Source of the DNA: Gammaproteobacteria bacterium | GTDB lineage: Bacteria; Pseudomonadota; Gammaproteobacteria; HK1 | DNA length: 64,000 nucleotides | Assembly (NCBI GenBank): GCA_021773635.1 | Contig: JAJFJV010000026.1 | Coordinates: forward strand, 1 to 64,000 | Direction of reading: 5' to 3' | In this document: piece by piece, positions 45,880 through 59,616 of the stretch | Layout: every line of letters begins with the position of its first letter | Position numbering within the stretch: the first letter of the stretch is position 1 | Notes under the pieces: generated by a model | Seen by the model: only the letters and a program-made list of their open reading frames with translations | What the model was told of the DNA's origin: nothing | The model's database searches: none | Position numbers and translations under genes: made by a program

Positions 45880-45915
45880 GGAGGTTCTCCTTATCACCGG
45901 TGAGGGGAGGAGTGG

Positions 45916-47505
45916 TCAACCAATTCGCTGGCGGACTCCGGCGCGGTAGCGCTCAACCCACTCGTCATCGGCGCGTGTTCGGACCGTGCGGCGATCGGCC
46001 GCGAGCTGTGCAGCGGCGGCCCGGTAGCTACCGGTTTCGGCGACTAGCAACGAGCAATAGCGGGCCTGCAGTTCATCAAGCGTCAACGCACCCGCCGCGA
46101 CCTGTTCGCCCAGCTCGTGTCGAAGGTCACCCGTGGAGGCCGACCGCATAACGGGCAATGGCCGGTATTCGCCGCGTATCACAATATTGCGCACACACTG
46201 TTCCAACTCACGCATATTGCCGGGCCACGCATAGTCACTCGGCAGATTTTCTTCGATCCACGCCATCACCTCTTGCGTGGTCGCCCCGGTTGCCCGTTCA
46301 CTGTCGCCTAGCAACTGGCCAACCAGATGGCGCACCAGGTTGAACAGATCTTCGGGGGTATCGTCGATCTGCTGCCTGAGTGACGGTGTCGCGACCATGT
46401 CTGCGCACAGCCGGTAGTAAAAATCGGCGCGGATGTGGCCACGCTGCATGTCACTGCCAAGGTCCCGATTCGTCGCACTGATGATTTTGCCGTTAAAGCG
46501 TCGCTGCCGGGTCTCGCCGATGCGCTGAAAACCGCGGTCCTGCAATACGCGCAACAACGTGACCTGCGTCGACTCGTTCAGCTCACCGATCTCATCAAGA
46601 AACACACAACCGTAGCGGCCGCATGATTCCAGCCAGCCCTTACGGTCCGACACCGCGCCGGTAAACGCGCCCTTGCTGTGACCGAATAACTCGGACTCGA
46701 CCAGTGTCTTCGAGAATGCGGTGATATTGATGGCGTGAAAGTCTGGTTCCAGCGTAGTTTCGAACCGCCCGGCCACTGCGTCGAATGGAATATAGCGCGC
46801 CGCGCCGATTGCGCGTGCGACCAGTTCCTTGCCGGTTCCCGAAGGCCCGGTGATGAGCGTTGGGATTTCACCCATACGCTGGTACAGCAGGCGCGCATAG
46901 CGGCGCATGTCATATGTAAAGATCGACTCCCACACGGCCATGCGTAGTCTAGCGGCCGGCAGTGAACCGCCGAAAATATTCTGGTAGATGGCGGCAAACG
47001 CGCGCGCCACCTGGAATTGCAACGCAAACAGGCTGGCGGCCGGATACAGGCTCGGGATGCATAGGCCAGGCAATTCCAGCAGTTGCTGGTAATCACGCTG
47101 AAAATCATCCCACACGGATACCCGCTGCGGCGTAGTACCAGGCCGAGCGGTCAGCGCCTCGATCTCCGGGTTCGCGCCACTAAAAAATCGATGGTAAAGC
47201 ACATAGGTCGCCAGATCCCGGTATAGCTCGATATCTGCATCACCGGCGTCTTTGCCAGTAATCAGCACGGTGCGCGCGGTCTCCAGTAATCGCTCAGCAA
47301 GGGCCCCGAGCTTTTCCGTGTTTCGGAACACCTTGTCCGGCAACAATGGCGCTGGACGGTGAATGAATGGGCGATCATGCTTAAAGTCCCGGCCCAACGC
47401 CCGTTTTTCCAATTCAATCCGCCGTTTGGAAAACGGGTTGCAGTAGCTGCGTGAGACTATCGCATCAGCGGCAGCGCGTTGTTCATCGTTCAATAAATGT
47501 TCCAT
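45916..47505 (-). CDS. Sigma54-dependent enhancer-binding protein with unrecognised sensor domain
   Basis: 529 residues. Central AAA+ domain: Walker A GPSGTGKE (220-227), sigma54-contacting GAFTGA loop (279-284), Walker B VFLDEIGE (301-308) and sensor region SATNRDLG. A Fis-type helix-turn-helix closes the protein (about 480-515, YRAAAAQLAADRRTV). The N-terminal 210 residues are mostly helical and are not a receiver, GAF, PAS or ACT domain that I can recognise; they presumably sense the signal. Divergent from the radical SAM operon, which has a sigma54 promoter, so this is its likely activator. Confidence 0.9.
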   Translation of the reverse strand: MEHLLNDEQRAAADAIVSRSYCNPFSKRRIELEKRALGRDFKHDRPFIHRPAPLLPDKVFRNTEKLGALAERLLETARTVLITGKDAGDADIELYRDLATYVLYHRFFSGANPEIEALTARPGTTPQRVSVWDDFQRDYQQLLELPGLCIPSLYPAASLFALQFQVARAFAAIYQNIFGGSLPAARLRMAVWESIFTYDMRRYARLLYQRMGEIPTLITGPSGTGKELVARAIGAARYIPFDAVAGRFETTLEPDFHAINITAFSKTLVESELFGHSKGAFTGAVSDRKGWLESCGRYGCVFLDEIGELNESTQVTLLRVLQDRGFQRIGETRQRRFNGKIISATNRDLGSDMQRGHIRADFYYRLCADMVATPSLRQQIDDTPEDLFNLVRHLVGQLLGDSERATGATTQEVMAWIEENLPSDYAWPGNMRELEQCVRNIVIRGEYRPLPVMRSASTGDLRHELGEQVAAGALTLDELQARYCSLLVAETGSYRAAAAQLAADRRTVRTRADDEWVERYRAGVRQRIG

Positions 47506-47526
47506 AGTGGGACATATTATGTTCCA
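47498..47526. repeat. Clustered inverted half-sites, probable upstream activator sequence
   Basis: Three alternating half-sites: TGTTCCA (47498-47504), TGGGACA (47508-47514), TGTTCCA (47520-47526). The last two form the 19-base inverted repeat 47508-47526 with one mismatch; its centre is about 107 bases upstream of the predicted sigma54 start. A fourth, imperfect copy (CGTCCCA, 47590-47596) abuts the -24 box. The first half-site overlaps the first codons of the regulator gene, which suggests autoregulation. Confidence 0.6.
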
Positions 47527-47596
47527 TTAATCTGCTTTCGTCACGGGCGGATTATTTAATTCCTCATTTAATCAATGGCTTAAGCAAAACGTCCCA

Positions 47597-47613
47597 TTGG
47601 CATGGTTCTCGCA
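47597..47613 (+). promoter_or_regulatory. Sigma54 (-24/-12) promoter of the radical SAM operon
   Basis: TTGGCATGGTTCTCGCA: GG at 47599-47600, ten bases, GC at 47611-47612. This keeps the invariant GG-N10-GC and most of the TGGCACG-N4-TTGC consensus. Start expected near 47624, 27 bases before the ATG at 47651. It also rules out the earlier TTG start of the open frame. Confidence 0.8.
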
Positions 47614-47650
47614 AAATGATAGATACCAGAACCAATACGAGGATCTACCA

Positions 47651-49159
47651 ATGACTGCCGCTGCCCTGTCCCTGCCTACTATTGGCACCACCGAGCCGAC
47701 GCTGGACCTGACCGGCCTGCTAAAACGTCGCATGCAACTGCCACAACGTCACCGCCTGCTACACGCGTACCCGCTACGCGCCGGCATGCCCCATCTCGAT
47801 TGGCTGCCGACCGCCAGACAGGCTGAGCTGCTCGATGCAGCCCAAATCCGACCAAGCGGCCAGCGCGGCCTGTTGATCGGCGTGCTGCCACACCCATTCT
47901 GCAATCCGGCCGTACGCGGCTGCGGGTTCTGTACCTTCCCTCACCAGTCTTGGCACCGTTCCACCGCACGGACAACCGTGCGGGCGGTCATCGACGAGAT
48001 CAAGGCCCGTCACGCGGCGAACCCTGCCATCGCGGATAAGCCGGTACAGGGAGTGTACTTCGGTGGCGGTACCGCGAACCTCGCGCCAGTGGATTCGCTA
48101 CGCGAGTTATCGCACACACTAAATGCGTATTTCGATCTGAGTCAGGCCGAAATCACACTGGAGGGTGCGCCGATATATTTTCTGAAACGCGACCGGCCAA
48201 TGACCGCATTGCGAAGTGCAATGGATGCACGCCACTTCCGCATCAGCATGGGTGTTCAGACCTTCGACCCAAAACAACTGCACCGCATGGGCCGGCAGGC
48301 CTTCGGTAATGCACAGACCTTCGCCGACGTCGTTGCATACGCGCACGCGGAGGGTATGACGGTGTCGGGCGACCTGCTATTCAACCTGCCGAATCAGTGG
48401 TACCAGGCCATGCGCGACGACGTGCTCCGCGCTATCGACATCGGGCTGGACCAAATCTGCCTGTACCATCTGGTCCTGTTCCGTGGACTCGGCACCGAGT
48501 GGTCCAAAGATCCGGACATGCTGGCCGGCCTGCCCGATAATGCACACGCCGCGGAACACTGGCTGAAACTACGCGAAGAATTGCTAAACGCCGGATTCGT
48601 GCAGACCTCATTGACCAACTTTGAGCGCGCCCCGGTGCACGCGACACCCGAACGCTTTCTGTACGAAGAACTCAGCTTCCAACCTGACTGTTTCGACATG
48701 CTCGGTTTCGGACCATCGGCAATCTCGTTCACCGCGGACCCGACATTCCAGCGTGGCTGGAAGTTGGTTAATACCGAATCCGCCCCAGCCTACCAGCAAT
48801 GTATCGCGCAACGTGGCAATGCATGGGAACGCTTCTTTGACTACGGGTCCCGGGACCTGCGCGTGTTCTACCTCACACGCCGATTGGCTGCACTGAAAGT
48901 TGAACTAAAAGACTACGTGCACCACTTCGGTTCGAAGGCAATGAACGACTTCAATCTGTGGTTCCGCGCCATCATGCAGGCAGGTCTGATGAACAAGCAG
49001 GCCATGATCATGACGCCGACCGCGGCCGGGATGTTTTATGCTGATGCCATGGCCTCTGTGCTGGTACTCGCGCACGACATAACCTGGCCCCGACGCTATT
49101 CCGCCGCGGACCATGCCATTGCCAGAAACAGTGTCAGCAATGACGCCGGATACATGTAG
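47651..49159 (+). CDS. HemN/HemW-like radical SAM protein with CX6CX2C motif
   Basis: 502 residues from ATG with GAGGAT upstream. HemN-type features: PHPFC...CGFCTFPHQ, YFGGGTANL (GGG at 138-140), EITLEGAP, ISMGVQTFD and GDLLFNLP, then a HemN-type C-terminal region. The cluster cysteines are Cys84, Cys91 and Cys94, a CX6CX2C spacing instead of CX3CX2C. An extension of about 75 residues precedes the core. HemN makes protoporphyrinogen, and HemW delivers haem; the substrate here is unknown. First gene of a sigma54-driven operon with the DUF2817 gene. Confidence 0.85.
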   Translation: MTAAALSLPTIGTTEPTLDLTGLLKRRMQLPQRHRLLHAYPLRAGMPHLDWLPTARQAELLDAAQIRPSGQRGLLIGVLPHPFCNPAVRGCGFCTFPHQSWHRSTARTTVRAVIDEIKARHAANPAIADKPVQGVYFGGGTANLAPVDSLRELSHTLNAYFDLSQAEITLEGAPIYFLKRDRPMTALRSAMDARHFRISMGVQTFDPKQLHRMGRQAFGNAQTFADVVAYAHAEGMTVSGDLLFNLPNQWYQAMRDDVLRAIDIGLDQICLYHLVLFRGLGTEWSKDPDMLAGLPDNAHAAEHWLKLREELLNAGFVQTSLTNFERAPVHATPERFLYEELSFQPDCFDMLGFGPSAISFTADPTFQRGWKLVNTESAPAYQQCIAQRGNAWERFFDYGSRDLRVFYLTRRLAALKVELKDYVHHFGSKAMNDFNLWFRAIMQAGLMNKQAMIMTPTAAGMFYADAMASVLVLAHDITWPRRYSAADHAIARNSVSNDAGYM

Positions 49160-49168
49160 GGGATATCG

Positions 49169-50410
49169 ATGAGAAAGATACTCACGGGCGTCTTGCTGGC
49201 CGCACTCGTTGGTGCGCCGCTGATTATAGTTGGCCCGGTGCTACAACGGTCGATGGCCTCGTTGGAATGCGTTCCGGCAAGTTACCCGGAGTCACCCTTG
49301 AGTACCGATATCCAGTTCAGCGACCGTTACCCGGCCGCGCGCGCGCGGTTTCTGGATGCGGCCGCTGACAATGGCATCACGGTGGAATCACTACGTCATC
49401 AACTGACCGGGCCCCACGGTGAGAACCTGTTTACCGATATCGCGTGGATCGGCCCAGCCAATGCGCCCACGGTGTTGCTACTGATATCTGGCACGCACGG
49501 TGTCGAGGGTTTTGCCGGTTCCGCGATCCAGACCGGCCTGCTGCAGGATGGTATTGCAACCCGCCTGCCTCCGAGCTTGGCGATTCTGATGGTGCATGCA
49601 ATCAACCCATGGGGTATGGCACACCTGCGCCGTTTCAACGAGGACAATATCGACGTCAACCGTAATGGCATCGACCACCGTGCCTTACCACCCGAAAATC
49701 CCGGGTACCAGCGCATGGCCGCGTTGCTGGCCCCCGTCGACATGAACCTGGCATCGGAGTTCGTCGCTTGGTCAGGGCTACTGTGGAATAGCCTGCGGCA
49801 TGGCCGCCAGGCGGTGGTCAGCGCCATCAGCCAGGGCCAGTACTCACACCCGCGTGGCCTGTTTTACGGCGGCGATGATGCAACCTGGTCCAGCCGCATA
49901 CTGCAAGGCATTACGGTACGCCACCTCGGCACAGCGCAACACGTTATAGTCCTCGATATCCATACGGGCCTCGGCGCGTTTGGTAACGCGGCGCTGATGG
50001 TCAGCGAAACTAGAAACCCGCTGGTCCACCAGCGGGCGGCCAGGATCTGGGGTGACGACAAGGTCGATGCCCGGGTCAAGGGTACGTCGGTATCGGTATA
50101 TCTAAATACCACCCTCAAGGATATCCTCGCGCCGCTTCTGCCCGATACAACGGTAACACCCGTGACGCTTGAATTTGGGACGGTGCCACGCGACGAAGCG
50201 CTCATTGCGTTGCGCACGGAGAACTGGCTGCATCATCACGGTGGACCCGGACACCCGCGCTATGACGCCATCAAGACCTGCCTGACGTCGGCATTCAATC
50301 CAAATTCGGGCGAGTGGCAAATGCTGGTTTGGAAGCAGGGCCGCGAGGTAGTGGAATCGGTGCTAGCGTGGGCGCGCGCCCGGCCGACAGAAACCGTGGC
50401 TCCGGTGTAG
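49169..50410 (+). CDS. Membrane-anchored DUF2817 (M14-like) metallopeptidase-like protein
   Basis: 413 residues. An N-terminal hydrophobic anchor or signal (about 4-26) precedes a DUF2817 domain (about 55-395). Putative zinc ligands: His110 and Glu113 (SGTHGVEGFAGS) and His265 (DIHTGLG); NEDNIDVNRN at 157-166 and Glu335 (TLEFGT) match the carboxypeptidase-like pattern. Most family members are cytoplasmic; the anchor suggests the periplasm. It begins nine bases after the radical SAM gene with AGGGGAT upstream, so they are co-transcribed. Substrate unknown. Confidence 0.8.
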   Translation: MRKILTGVLLAALVGAPLIIVGPVLQRSMASLECVPASYPESPLSTDIQFSDRYPAARARFLDAAADNGITVESLRHQLTGPHGENLFTDIAWIGPANAPTVLLLISGTHGVEGFAGSAIQTGLLQDGIATRLPPSLAILMVHAINPWGMAHLRRFNEDNIDVNRNGIDHRALPPENPGYQRMAALLAPVDMNLASEFVAWSGLLWNSLRHGRQAVVSAISQGQYSHPRGLFYGGDDATWSSRILQGITVRHLGTAQHVIVLDIHTGLGAFGNAALMVSETRNPLVHQRAARIWGDDKVDARVKGTSVSVYLNTTLKDILAPLLPDTTVTPVTLEFGTVPRDEALIALRTENWLHHHGGPGHPRYDAIKTCLTSAFNPNSGEWQMLVWKQGREVVESVLAWARARPTETVAPV

Positions 50411-50447
50411 CTCCGGTAGAGAGAAGCGAGAAATCACGAGTCCAGAC

Positions 50448-50774
50448 ATGTATAGCATTTGGCGCGAGTTGAAGGGCTGGGGCCTTCTCTTTCTTTGGAT
50501 TGTGGGGATCATTGTCTTGGTCCTCCTCACACCGCTGTTTTCTCTAGTCGGACGATTCAAACGACGCAACCGCCGGGCATCTGAGCAGGAAGAGGACCAG
50601 CAAGTCCAGACCTCGCCATCAACCTCGGAACCAGTAGAAGAAGATGAATGTAAGCCACTTACGTTCTGGTCAATGGTTTGTCTCGAATGGCAAATTCGAT
50701 TCATCATGGCTGCGGTGGGGTTGGTTGTGGTGCTCATCGGGGTTGCCGTGGGGATGCTTTTAGCCGCGATCTGA
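50448..50774 (+). CDS. Small protein with two predicted membrane helices
   Basis: 108 residues. Helix 1 about 11-33 (WGLLFLWIVGIIVLVLLTPLF), then a basic patch (GRFKRRNRR), an acidic linker (EQEEDQQ, EPVEEDE) and helix 2 about 85-107 (FIMAAVGLVVVLIGVAVGMLL). The hydrophobic/positive-inside pattern supports a real protein, but no family was recognised. 37 bases after the DUF2817 gene; it may be the last gene of that operon or a separate one. Codon use is looser than in the two genes before it. Confidence 0.55.
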   Translation: MYSIWRELKGWGLLFLWIVGIIVLVLLTPLFSLVGRFKRRNRRASEQEEDQQVQTSPSTSEPVEEDECKPLTFWSMVCLEWQIRFIMAAVGLVVVLIGVAVGMLLAAI

Positions 50775-51122
50775 ACAAAATCTAAACCAAGAGCGCTCAC
50801 GTGGCGAAGCCAAGAGTTTTCTAGCTGAAGAACGCCGGTCCAAGGGCAGGGGCATGTGGTTGCGCTGCTTTTCGACGAATAGACCGATTCCTCTTCCTGA
50901 TATTCTTTAGACTTCTCGATGGGCTTCACGATCATCGGATGATCCAAATGTCCGGGATTTAGGGATCTAGTGTCGCCAGTATGCATTTCGCTTCGGCCTT
51001 ACGTAATTTGCCGAACCGGAGGAGATTTGAGTACGCGGATCGTTGTAGCGGCTGCCCCTTGACTGAATTTGTCAGACTCCGGATCGAGTTACCCAGCAGA
51101 CCATTTATGAGGCGAATCACTC
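50775..51122. other. 348-base stretch without a supported gene
   Basis: Open frames on both strands here (50363-50986 minus, 50981-51262 plus) have no recognisable domain or ribosome site and overlap better genes. A possible -35 (TTGACT near 51057) precedes the peptidase gene, without a clear -10. No terminator, tRNA, attC site or long repeat was seen. Confidence 0.5.
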
Positions 51123-52130
51123 ATGCGACCCTGGCAGGCGAAGACCTTCAAATGTGCGGCAACCTCCCTTGTCTTCCTGTTGGTTATCGGTGTCGGCCTG
51201 TGGATGACGGTCACGCAACCTCTGATTGGGGAAGTCTCTCCGACCGAGCCGATCACTGTTGATCCTTTTCGTCTGCGGACACATGTGACGGCTCTCGCCG
51301 AGGAATTTCGACCACGCGATTGGCTGCACCCAAAAAATCTGGATCAGGCGGCAGGCTACATTCGGAGCGAGTTTGAGAGCGCAGGATTGACGGTGGCGGA
51401 TCAAACATATGAGATGGAAGGCAGAACCTATCGAAACGTCATCGCATCAATTGGGCCGGATACCAAGGGCCGGGTCGTTGTAGGGGCCCACTACGATGCG
51501 TTTGGTGAACTTCCCGGAGCCGACGACAACGCAAGTGGAGTGGCAGGCCTGATCGAGCTTGCACATCGACTGCCTGGAATCAATTCTAGCGTTCGAATAG
51601 ATCTCGTGGCATTTACCCTGGAAGAGCCCATGACTCCTGAGGGCGACGGGCTGTTCCGCAGCGAGTTCGGAGGCAGTTCCGTCTACATCCGTTCGCTTGA
51701 GGAACAAGGACGGGGCGTTCGCGTGTTTCTCAACTTGGAAATGATCGGATATTTTAGCGATGAAAATGGGAGTCAGCAGTTCCCGTTGGGTCTCATCGGT
51801 ATGTTCTATCCGTCGATGGGTAACTTCATCACGATCGTTGGCCGCGTAGGGCAGGGAAAGATCGTTCGTCGCGTCAAGGGAGCAATGCGGTCGGCCACCG
51901 CCCTCCCGGTTCATTCCATGAGTGCACACGAGATTGTTGAAGGCGTGGATTGGTCCGACCATTCCAACTTCTGGAATGCGGGTTATGATGCCGTGATGAT
52001 CACAGATACGAGTTTCCTGCGTAACACTGCGTATCACACGGAGGGAGACACTGCGGATCGACTTGACTACGAGCGCATGGCAATGGTCGTCGAGGGCGTC
52101 TACGCTGCTGTGAGAGAGTTCGCCCGGTGA
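51123..52130 (+). CDS. M28 family metallopeptidase, membrane-anchored
   Basis: 335 residues. A hydrophobic segment at about 11-31 acts as signal or anchor. The M28 two-zinc site is complete: GAHYDAF (His123, Asp125), PGADDNASG (Asp135), the catalytic pair TLEEP (Glu167/168), SDHSNFWNAG, and NTAYHTEGDT. Predicted periplasmic aminopeptidase. Frequent GGA and TCG codons differ from the neighbouring housekeeping genes and suggest acquisition from elsewhere. No operon partner. Confidence 0.88.
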   Translation: MRPWQAKTFKCAATSLVFLLVIGVGLWMTVTQPLIGEVSPTEPITVDPFRLRTHVTALAEEFRPRDWLHPKNLDQAAGYIRSEFESAGLTVADQTYEMEGRTYRNVIASIGPDTKGRVVVGAHYDAFGELPGADDNASGVAGLIELAHRLPGINSSVRIDLVAFTLEEPMTPEGDGLFRSEFGGSSVYIRSLEEQGRGVRVFLNLEMIGYFSDENGSQQFPLGLIGMFYPSMGNFITIVGRVGQGKIVRRVKGAMRSATALPVHSMSAHEIVEGVDWSDHSNFWNAGYDAVMITDTSFLRNTAYHTEGDTADRLDYERMAMVVEGVYAAVREFAR

Positions 52131-52204
52131 TGTCGGTGTCACCAATGCGCGGTGTTTGCTATTGGGTGCGATCAGCGTCTAAATCTGATAGACCCCCAGA
52201 ATTC

Positions 52205-57372: not shown

Positions 57373-58197
57373 TTACTCCGCCGGCAGCAGAGAAAAGGCT
57401 TGCTCCCCCCGCGGACGAAAATTCCTGACGAGTTGTTGCCCCGCATCCCCGCTTAGCCAGTCTATAAAGCGCATCACGTACTTGTATTTTACATGCGGAT
57501 GGCGCCCCGGATTTACTGGCAAAATGCTGTATACGTTGCGCATTCCGGCCTTTCTGCCGAGCAGGATTTCCAATTCTCCTGGCCTTTTGAAAGCAAGCCA
57601 GGTAGCGGGATCGCTCAGGGTGTAAGCGGACTGGGCGACGGCCATTTGCAGGGTGGCGCCCATGCCACTGCCGACCTCGCGATACCATCCTCCACGGGGT
57701 TGGTGGCCGGCGGATTTCCACAGCGCGCGTTCGGCCATATGGGTGCCGCTTTGGTCGCCCCGGGAAATGAAGGGTGACCGCTGGCGGGCAATGGCTAAAA
57801 ATGCCGCCTCTACACTCGGAGCATCCCGGATTCCTGCTGGATCAGTGTCCGGTCCGAGCAACACGAAGTGGTTGTACATAACGGGATAACGTTGGGTACC
57901 AAATCCCCCTGCAAGGAAGTTGTGTTCGGCCTCGGGATGATGGACAAATATCAGGTCTGCATCTCCCCGTTCTGCGATACGGATGGCCTGACCGGAGCCC
58001 ACTGCCAACACCCGCACGGCTATTCCGCTCTCTTGCTGAAAACGGGGAAGCAGGACATCAAGCAGGCCGGAGTTATCCAGTGAGGTGGTTGAGGCCATGC
58101 GTATAACGGGCGGATTCTCTTCATCGCAGGCGGTGATGAGCCCGGTTAACAGAAGCACCCACAGGGCGCCCACGACCCTTTGCTTTGCAGTCCTCAC
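57373..58197 (-). CDS. tupA: Tungstate-type ABC transporter substrate-binding lipoprotein
   Basis: 274 residues from GTG overlapping the tupC stop (GTGA). Lipoprotein signal VVGALWVLLLTGLITAC with the lipobox cysteine at about 24. Oxyanion-binding pattern ASTTSLDNSGLLDVLLP and SRGDQSGTHMAE is that of TupA rather than ModA. It should bind tungstate (or molybdate) in the periplasm. The frame extends 15 codons upstream, without a better start. Confidence 0.88.
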   Translation of the reverse strand: MRTAKQRVVGALWVLLLTGLITACDEENPPVIRMASTTSLDNSGLLDVLLPRFQQESGIAVRVLAVGSGQAIRIAERGDADLIFVHHPEAEHNFLAGGFGTQRYPVMYNHFVLLGPDTDPAGIRDAPSVEAAFLAIARQRSPFISRGDQSGTHMAERALWKSAGHQPRGGWYREVGSGMGATLQMAVAQSAYTLSDPATWLAFKRPGELEILLGRKAGMRNVYSILPVNPGRHPHVKYKYVMRFIDWLSGDAGQQLVRNFRPRGEQAFSLLPAE

Positions 58198-58919
58198 CCC
58201 GGGGCAAGCTCCCCGTTTATGAAGGCCTGGGCCTCGACGCATTGCGGGCCGGCAAAAAAGTGCTCTGCAGGGCCCTGCTCCAGCACCTGACCTTGCCAGA
58301 AAAAAACGATCTCGTCGGCGAGGCGATGAGCCTGGGCCAGATCATGGGTCGTCATGATCACCTTGGTGCCGCCTGCACCAATGGCGGCAACCATTCGCTC
58401 TACCTCCAGGGTCGCCCCCGGATCAAGACTGGCGCAGGGTTCATCCAATAGTAATACGCGGGGTTTCAGGGCCCAGGCGCGGGCCAGGCTAAGGCGCTGT
58501 TGTTCCCCCACGGAAAGTAGCTGGGCGGAACGCCGGGCCAGCGGCAGTAGGCGGGCCCGTTGTAGTGCTGAGGTCACCAGGGCAGGGCGCTCACGGCGAG
58601 GAATGCCGCGTACGCCGAGGGCATAAGCGATATTGTCGGCGACACTGCGACGCAACAATACCGGTCGCTGGAAGACCATGGCCTGTCCATGGCGCGTGTC
58701 CTCGGCGCTTTTTCCGTTCCAGGTGATGGTCCCGGATGTGGCCTCAAGCAGGCCATGGCAGAGCTTTAGAAACAGGGTTTTTCCCGCACCGTTGGGGCCG
58801 AGAATCATGCTCAAGCCGGGGTGTTCGATACGCAGCGATATCTGTTTCAGCAGCGGGGTGTCGCCAGAACTGAAGCAGAGTCCGGAGGCCACCATAGGCA
58901 ATAGCATAGGTTCAGGCAT
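58194..58919 (-). CDS. tupC: Tungstate-type ABC transporter ATP-binding protein
   Basis: 241 residues. Walker A GPNGAGKT, signature LSVGEQQRLSLARAW, Walker B VLLLDEPCASLD. It energises TupB. It overlaps tupB by 8 bases and tupA by 4, so the operon order is tupB-tupC-tupA. Confidence 0.88.
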   Translation of the reverse strand: MPEPMLLPMVASGLCFSSGDTPLLKQISLRIEHPGLSMILGPNGAGKTLFLKLCHGLLEATSGTITWNGKSAEDTRHGQAMVFQRPVLLRRSVADNIAYALGVRGIPRRERPALVTSALQRARLLPLARRSAQLLSVGEQQRLSLARAWALKPRVLLLDEPCASLDPGATLEVERMVAAIGAGGTKVIMTTHDLAQAHRLADEIVFFWQGQVLEQGPAEHFFAGPQCVEAQAFINGELAPG

Positions 58920-59616
58920 AGCGCTGCTTTACCCGATCCCGGACGATGATAACGGCCAGGTTAAGAGCCAGTGAGAGACCCATGAGTACGATGCCCAGGG
59001 CAAGGGCAAGTTGCAGGTTTCCCTTGCTGGTTTCCAATGCGATGCTGGTGGTCATCACCCGGGTCAGATGATGGATGTTGCCCCCGACCATGAGCACCGC
59101 TCCGACCTCGGCGCTGGCCCGGCCAAAGCCGGCGAGGGCGGCACTCACCAGGTTAAAACGCCCATCCCAGAGTACCGTGGTCATAGTGCGCCACGGCCCC
59201 GCGCCGAGGGAGCGCAACTGCTCGTCATAACTACGATGGAATTCCGTTGCACTTTCGCAGGTGAGTGCGGCGATGATAGGCGTCACCAGCAGCCACTGGG
59301 CGATCACCATGGCAGCGGGGGTGTAGAGCAGGCCGAGTGGTCCGAGGGGGCCACTGCGAGACAGCAACAGGAATACCACCAGGCCGGCAATCACCGGTGG
59401 CAGGCCCATGAAGGCGTGTAGCCCGGCGTTGACCAAATCACGGCCGGGAAAGCGAAACAGGGCCACGGCCGCTCCGAGCGGAAAACCCGTCAAGGCGCCG
59501 AGCAATACGGCACTCAGGCTTATCTTCAGGGAAAGGGTAACGATTTCCAGCAAACCCGGGTCCAACTGCAGCAACAGCTGCAATGCCGTGGCAAAGGCCT
59601 CATGGATATCTGTCAT
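58912..59616 (-). CDS. tupB: Tungstate-type ABC transporter permease
   Basis: 234 residues, about five or six membrane helices. The EAA-type loop HRSYDEQLRSLGAGPWRT...LAGFGRASAEVGAVLMVGGN is the TupB/ModB pattern. First gene of tupBCA, divergent from parC over only 80 bases, with no Moco riboswitch visible in that gap. Confidence 0.88.
   Translation of the reverse strand: MTDIHEAFATALQLLLQLDPGLLEIVTLSLKISLSAVLLGALTGFPLGAAVALFRFPGRDLVNAGLHAFMGLPPVIAGLVVFLLLSRSGPLGPLGLLYTPAAMVIAQWLLVTPIIAALTCESATEFHRSYDEQLRSLGAGPWRTMTTVLWDGRFNLVSAALAGFGRASAEVGAVLMVGGNIHHLTRVMTTSIALETSKGNLQLALALGIVLMGLSLALNLAVIIVRDRVKQRYA

Follow-up and report, generated by a model that had tools for sequence, protein, structure and literature searches.

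In the PspF-pspABC system, the gene of the enhancer-binding protein (EBP) lies divergent to a sigma-54 promoter (PMC11237479). In HemN and NocN, a tyrosine (Tyr56 and Tyr34, respectively) stacks on the adenine of the second SAM (PMC12871812). The open-access literature yielded no paper on the EBP family treated here, which we refer to as NPF, or on the function of DUF2817. The window analysed here, 64,000 nucleotides in length, had been described in a first-pass annotation as carrying a three-gene sigma-54 unit between mazG and folE2. All elements of this unit were confirmed; its extent had to be corrected to five genes at 45880-52204. The features are as follows:

45880-52204, no strand: probable acquired island between mazG and folE2, a segment missing from both sister species.
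45916-47505, minus strand: sigma-54 EBP of the NPF family (PF00158, Walker A, GAFTGA, N-domain model, tree).
47498-47503, no strand: predicted operator half-site TGTTCC, the first of three (sequence; the 11-bp register is also found in L112 and L113).
47508-47526, no strand: predicted palindromic EBP operator TGGGACATATTATGTTCCA, half-sites at 47509 and 47520 (family motif GNACA-N5-TGTNC).
47598-47613, plus strand: predicted sigma-54 -24/-12 promoter TGGCATGGTTCTCGCA, GG-N10-GC (consensus match, position, family recurrence).
47651-49159, plus strand: HemN-fold radical SAM protein with a CX6CX2C motif (PF04055, structure model, tree).
49169-50410, plus strand: DUF2817 zinc-hydrolase-like protein, predicted N-terminal anchor at residues 4-22 (PF10994, hydropathy, zinc residues).
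50448-50774, plus strand: 108-aa protein with two predicted membrane segments, 37 bp after the DUF2817 gene.
51123-52130, plus strand: anchored M28-family peptidase, island member after a 348-bp gap.

In two sister species of the same genus (G001 and G002), mazG and folE2 are convergent with their stops 3-9 bp apart, and the flanks of the segment are collinear with both genomes at 67-96% identity. The 6.3-kb segment with its five genes (EBP, radical SAM protein, DUF2817, 108-aa membrane protein and M28 peptidase) is absent from both sister species compared (2/2) and, because mazG abuts folE2 in these, the unit is larger than the three genes initially reported. The segment itself is directly observed; the two sister genomes and the EBP tree described below suggest that it was gained here rather than lost in the sisters. 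We therefore read the interval between mazG and folE2 as a horizontally acquired, self-switched sigma-54 island, with a probability of about 0.6. GC content and codon use differ little between the island and its surroundings, none of the five genes encodes an integrase or transposase, and the search for repeats at the island ends was not informative, as the direct repeats were only 7-mers and none was long. Elsewhere in the window, three genes on the minus strand (57373-59616) between parE-like and parC-like genes are absent from that position in both sister species; they encode a solute-binding protein, an ATPase and a permease and by eye resemble a tungstate/molybdate-type ABC importer.

The regulator had been proposed to be a dedicated EBP, and a sigma-54 activator-type AAA+ domain was indeed found (PF00158, 153 bits, E 7e-45 in Pfam) with a Walker A motif and a GAFTGA loop at residues 279-284. 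The protein consists of an all-alpha N-domain (residues 1-205, approximately), the AAA+ domain (213-367) and a putative C-terminal DNA-binding region, where no HTH profile matched at E 0.1 and the stretch nevertheless aligns across the NPF family. The structure model of the N-domain is all-helical with a mean pLDDT of 87. Comparison with known folds gave no convincing PDB match (Foldseek best E 0.7), and VIA-align reached a Z of 5.7 at most, within the helical-bundle background (14-3-3, Cas12). RpoN is encoded in the genome (PF04552, 234 bits), and the EBP is transcribed divergently from the operon headed by the radical SAM gene. Proteins with this unannotated N-domain, which carries an NPF motif, form a family occurring mostly in Myxococcota: full-length relatives were detected in 22/141 Myxococcota genomes and in four others among the 369 genomes of the EBP's own class. 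The island EBP shares 44-49% identity with one Myxococcota subgroup and about 35% with members of its own class, and in the tree it groups with that subgroup (100/100), apart from the members of its own class.

Of all aspects of the island, regulation is the best supported. The probable EBP binding sites and the GG-N10-GC promoter suggested earlier are both present. In the operator TGGGACATATTATGTTCCA, 8/9 arm pairs match, and 0.05 such palindromes are expected in the window. The predicted half-sites at 47498, 47509 and 47520 all lie in an 11-bp register at the start of the EBP gene, approximately 75-100 bp upstream of the -24/-12 promoter. A search of the genome with 0-1 mismatch returned the island site as the sole match, and the EBP therefore looks dedicated. 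The second-best match, with two mismatches, is located at L153:1501-1519 (G000 C42:16023) near two genes recognised by eye, one ftsY-like and one for an M16-like peptidase; no sigma-54 promoter match lies beside this site. The island promoter TGGCATGGTTCTCGCA deviates at two positions from TGGCACG-N4-TTGCW, and consensus matches in the 64 kb are alone not above chance (6 found, 3.3 expected). Its position and the recurrence of divergent sigma-54 promoters across the NPF family lend this match weight and together suggest that the radical SAM-headed operon is under sigma-54 control.

This recurrence was determined upstream of 26 family genes. The motif GNACA-N(3-7)-TGTNC occurred in 8/26, compared to 0.5 expected from dinucleotide shuffles (sd 0.7, max 3), and in all eight the spacer was exactly five. 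A sigma-54 promoter with two mismatches at most pointed away from the EBP in 13/26 (0.3 in shuffled sequences, max 2) and lay on the EBP strand in 0/26. The sigma-54 consensus is the known one and was not fitted; the operator motif was picked after the palindromes had been seen, and some loci are near-identical, so that both counts overstate independence (L111-113 and L094/L097/L098 are related, non-independent loci). One locus, L109, was omitted from the counts due to an interrupted frame; it was inspected by hand as L125 and has a divergent sigma-54 promoter. The regulatory architecture recurs across the family, and the layout of operator and promoter in the island fits it.

The genes accompanying other NPF EBPs differ from those of the island. 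PspA genes are divergent or adjacent to the EBP in L111-L113 and also lie near it in L126 and L049, and genes for YiaAB membrane proteins adjoin it in L094, L096-L098, L104 and L107. A PlsC-type acyltransferase (PF01553) is encoded beside five of the six closest EBP relatives (L120, L121, L123, L124 and L125). These acyltransferases are 39-52% identical to the L125 copy, and the pairs, which are divergent, occur in Myxococcota, with a transposase-like gene intervening in L121; the sigma-54 promoter is clear in L125 and not in L120, L123 or L124. Further neighbours are one MFS transporter and one VIT/VWA protein. Because PspA, YiaAB and PlsC-type acyltransferases are among the neighbours, gene association points to the NPF EBP as a switch of membrane homeostasis, and by analogy the island EBP may respond to a membrane-type signal. 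None of the NPF loci examined pairs with a radical SAM gene of the CX6CX2C clade, with DUF2817 or with an island-type M28 peptidase. As no relative was found to control a radical SAM or DUF2817 gene, the physiological role proposed for the EBP is one transferred across changed targets, and the switch seems, by this analogy, to have exchanged lipid or membrane targets for the radical SAM-DUF2817 operon. In genome G203, an M14-like gene (L101:1-406, by eye) is located near an NPF EBP, and a CX6CX2C radical SAM gene is found on another contig.

The radical SAM gene starts with the ATG at 47651 behind AGGA at 47640-47643; the TTG at 47597 given in the open reading frame list is an unlikely start as it lies in the promoter. 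The protein contains the motif C84-X6-C91-X2-C94 (PF04055), and its structure model matches the fold of HemN throughout its length, with the N-terminal region and the C-terminal domain of HemN both represented (1olt; Z 32.7, rmsd 3.2, 408 residues aligned, TM 0.69/0.79). Positions matching the conserved E, Q, R and D of the HemN family are kept (E171, Q203, R215 and D241). The best curated profile, TIGR04107 for HutW/ChuW, scores 131 bits against a cut-off of 400 over residues 82-472; HemN (51.7, cut-off 325) and HemW (77, cut-off 205) are missed as well. The tree places the CX6CX2C proteins in a clade of their own (100/99), whose sister is a CX8CX2C clade (98/96). The CX6CX2C clade stands apart from the HemN, HemW, HutW and STM4012 representatives, with the deeper order unsure owing to long branches. 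Cut-offs and tree together speak against a HemN, HutW or HemW equivalog; as to the tetrapyrrole-related compound suggested earlier, the protein has the HemN fold but misses the curated cut-offs.

Orthologues with 38-49% identity occur in Myxococcota and Planctomycetota and share CX6CX2C and GGGTANL. All complete relatives end in Met-Gly, which the island protein lacks, ending in Tyr-Met. At the position of the second-SAM tyrosine, the CX6CX2C clade has an aliphatic residue and the CX8CX2C clade keeps Tyr; the alignment of this region sets LLIGVLPHPFC against LYVHIPFC. The clade thus combines an altered cluster spacing with the lack of a residue deemed conserved for a HemN-like second SAM, and its chemistry should accordingly not be guessed from HemN annotations; as a speculative reading, it could be a new HemN-fold class, possibly with a single SAM. 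Among 94 related genomes only matches of general HemN/HemW similarity were found, and a profile search of 398 genomes from the phylum brought up one further strong match, a member of the sister clade; the genome itself carries two other HemN/HemW-type genes. Loci of the CX8CX2C sister clade are L065, L066, L067, L068, L070 and L079, and in L065 a methyltransferase-like gene adjoins.

A gap of 9 bp separates the radical SAM gene from the DUF2817 gene, whose ribosome-binding site overlaps the radical SAM stop, and the earlier claim of a two-gene operon is borne out as far as the close spacing of the pair is concerned. At the junction (49154-49171), the Tyr-Met of the radical SAM protein is followed by TAG-GGG; the two genes share a reading frame, interrupted by this TAG alone. 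PF10994 matches over its full length (profile 1-341, 342 bits, cut-off 23), and the zinc-site residues H110, E113, H265 and E335 are present, with the ligands assigned by the M14/AstE family pattern. The single hydrophobic segment, residues 4-22, has a mean hydropathy of 2.5; among the relatives examined, the sequence preceding the domain reaches 1.3 at most. From this N-terminal segment the protein is likely anchored and facing the periplasm, on the opposite side of the membrane from the cytoplasmic radical SAM protein. Two proteins predicted in different compartments argue for co-regulation rather than consecutive steps, although a transported intermediate would still be compatible with the data. 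The 108-aa gene likely belongs to the operon; its codon fit is lower, and a hairpin resembling a terminator (50471-50487) might separate it from the genes before it. For the M28 gene behind the 348-bp gap, operon membership is uncertain.

The trio of EBP, radical SAM protein and DUF2817 is a one-off assembly and not a conserved pathway. Homologues occur apart: none of eight radical SAM orthologue loci (Myxococcota and Planctomycetota), several on short contigs where a distant partner could be missed, has DUF2817 proper or an NPF EBP within the sequence examined, and a conserved three-gene module is accordingly rejected. In the plasmid collection, the matches listed comprised radical SAM relatives below 29% and DUF2817 relatives below 40% identity and no linked pair. 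The first reading is therefore upheld for the EBP, its sites, the sigma-54 promoter and the gene pair but not for a recurring set. Neighbours of the orthologues are inconsistent, namely a TetR regulator upstream in 3/8, an FHA-sigma54 regulator in 1/8, an MbnB/TglH-type RiPP enzyme gene in 1/8 and a related M14 gene in 1/8, and the radical SAM protein thus seems to stand alone, with local regulators that vary from locus to locus. The RiPP enzyme gene (L015:6438-7322, MbnB/TglH/ChrH-type, PF05114) is divergent to the orthologue; the M14/DUF2817-related gene (L078:4729-5637, Planctomycetota) encodes a lipoprotein-like N-terminus and lies on the same strand, approximately 0.8 kb upstream.

With regard to function, the all-alpha N-domain may read a membrane or envelope signal, upon which the EBP would bind the operator, remodel RNAP-sigma54 by ATP hydrolysis and switch on the radical SAM and DUF2817 genes, and probably that of the 108-aa membrane protein as well. 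As a guess, the cytoplasmic radical SAM enzyme might modify a small, probably membrane-associated compound of lipid, quinone or tetrapyrrole type, and the anchored zinc hydrolase might act independently on a periplasmic amide or ester, with the two sharing regulation without forming consecutive steps. The wider proposal, in which an unannotated family with its own sensor and operator governs membrane repair in Myxococcota and some Pseudomonadota and has here been re-wired to a new HemN-fold class that remodels a lipid or quinone on stress, is a speculation that we consider improbable as a whole. The tight junction and shared promoter, together with the same-strand M14/DUF2817-related gene of L078, would also suit a radical SAM enzyme whose product, a peptide, amide or tetrapyrrole conjugate, is then trimmed by DUF2817. 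No such partner turned up at the remaining seven orthologue loci within the contig stretches examined, DUF2817 occurs without a CX6CX2C radical SAM protein in 20/113 Myxococcota, and the predicted compartments differ. Neither a precursor-like gene nor a leader-binding domain was recognised, so the peptide version proposed earlier is not supported, and successive action on one compound is rather unlikely in general.

An anaerobic haem or porphyrin enzyme similar to HutW or HemN, serving tetrapyrrole salvage or decarboxylation, would explain the full-length HemN fold and the rank of TIGR04107 as best curated family at 131 bits. We hold this to be doubtful, as the HutW, HemN and HemW cut-offs are missed widely, the motif is CX6CX2C instead of CX3CX2C in a separate clade, two other HemN/HemW-type genes are available in the genome, and the island has no haem uptake gene. 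The five-gene set was found nowhere else searched, and the gap before M28 and the codon fit of the 108-aa gene could indicate a loose collection of acquired genes, with a working EBP and promoter and no joint role of the genes downstream. Against this, which we also regard as unlikely, stand the tight radical SAM-DUF2817 junction, the intact frames and a single switch whose operator and promoter are both intact. Returning to the island as an acquired, self-switched unit, the NPF regulator family is the most interesting result of the analysis: this unannotated group of sigma-54 activators, repeatedly found beside membrane-homeostasis genes, now has an operator, a promoter and a target set that can be tested, and the island suggests that its switch can be reused for a different operon.

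Compared to PspF-pspABC, the island has the same divergent layout of EBP and sigma-54 promoter, and several members of the NPF family lie beside PspA genes; however, an N-domain of 205 aa precedes the AAA+ domain of the island EBP, in contrast to the AAA+ plus HTH architecture described for PspF, and the island lacks PspA and its operon encodes enzymes. HemN, the oxygen-independent coproporphyrinogen III oxidase (1olt), shares the fold over 408 residues and E171, Q203, R215 and D241 with the radical SAM protein but differs in its CX3CX2C motif and in Tyr56, which has no equivalent here. HutW/ChuW, the anaerobic haem-degrading radical SAM methyltransferase, provides the best curated profile; the island protein stays at 131 of 400 bits, has no haem-utilisation neighbours and stands apart in the tree. 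Class C radical SAM methylases (NocN, 9p2u) share with the island protein a radical SAM domain of the HemN-like type (E 1e-43 by profile), yet the equivalent of Tyr34 is missing from the CX6CX2C clade and present in the CX8CX2C sister clade. Finally, DUF2817 matches the M14-like zinc hydrolases (PF10994, AstE/AspA) over the full length of the family and in its zinc-site residues, and is set apart by a strong N-terminal membrane segment unseen upstream of the homologous domains examined.
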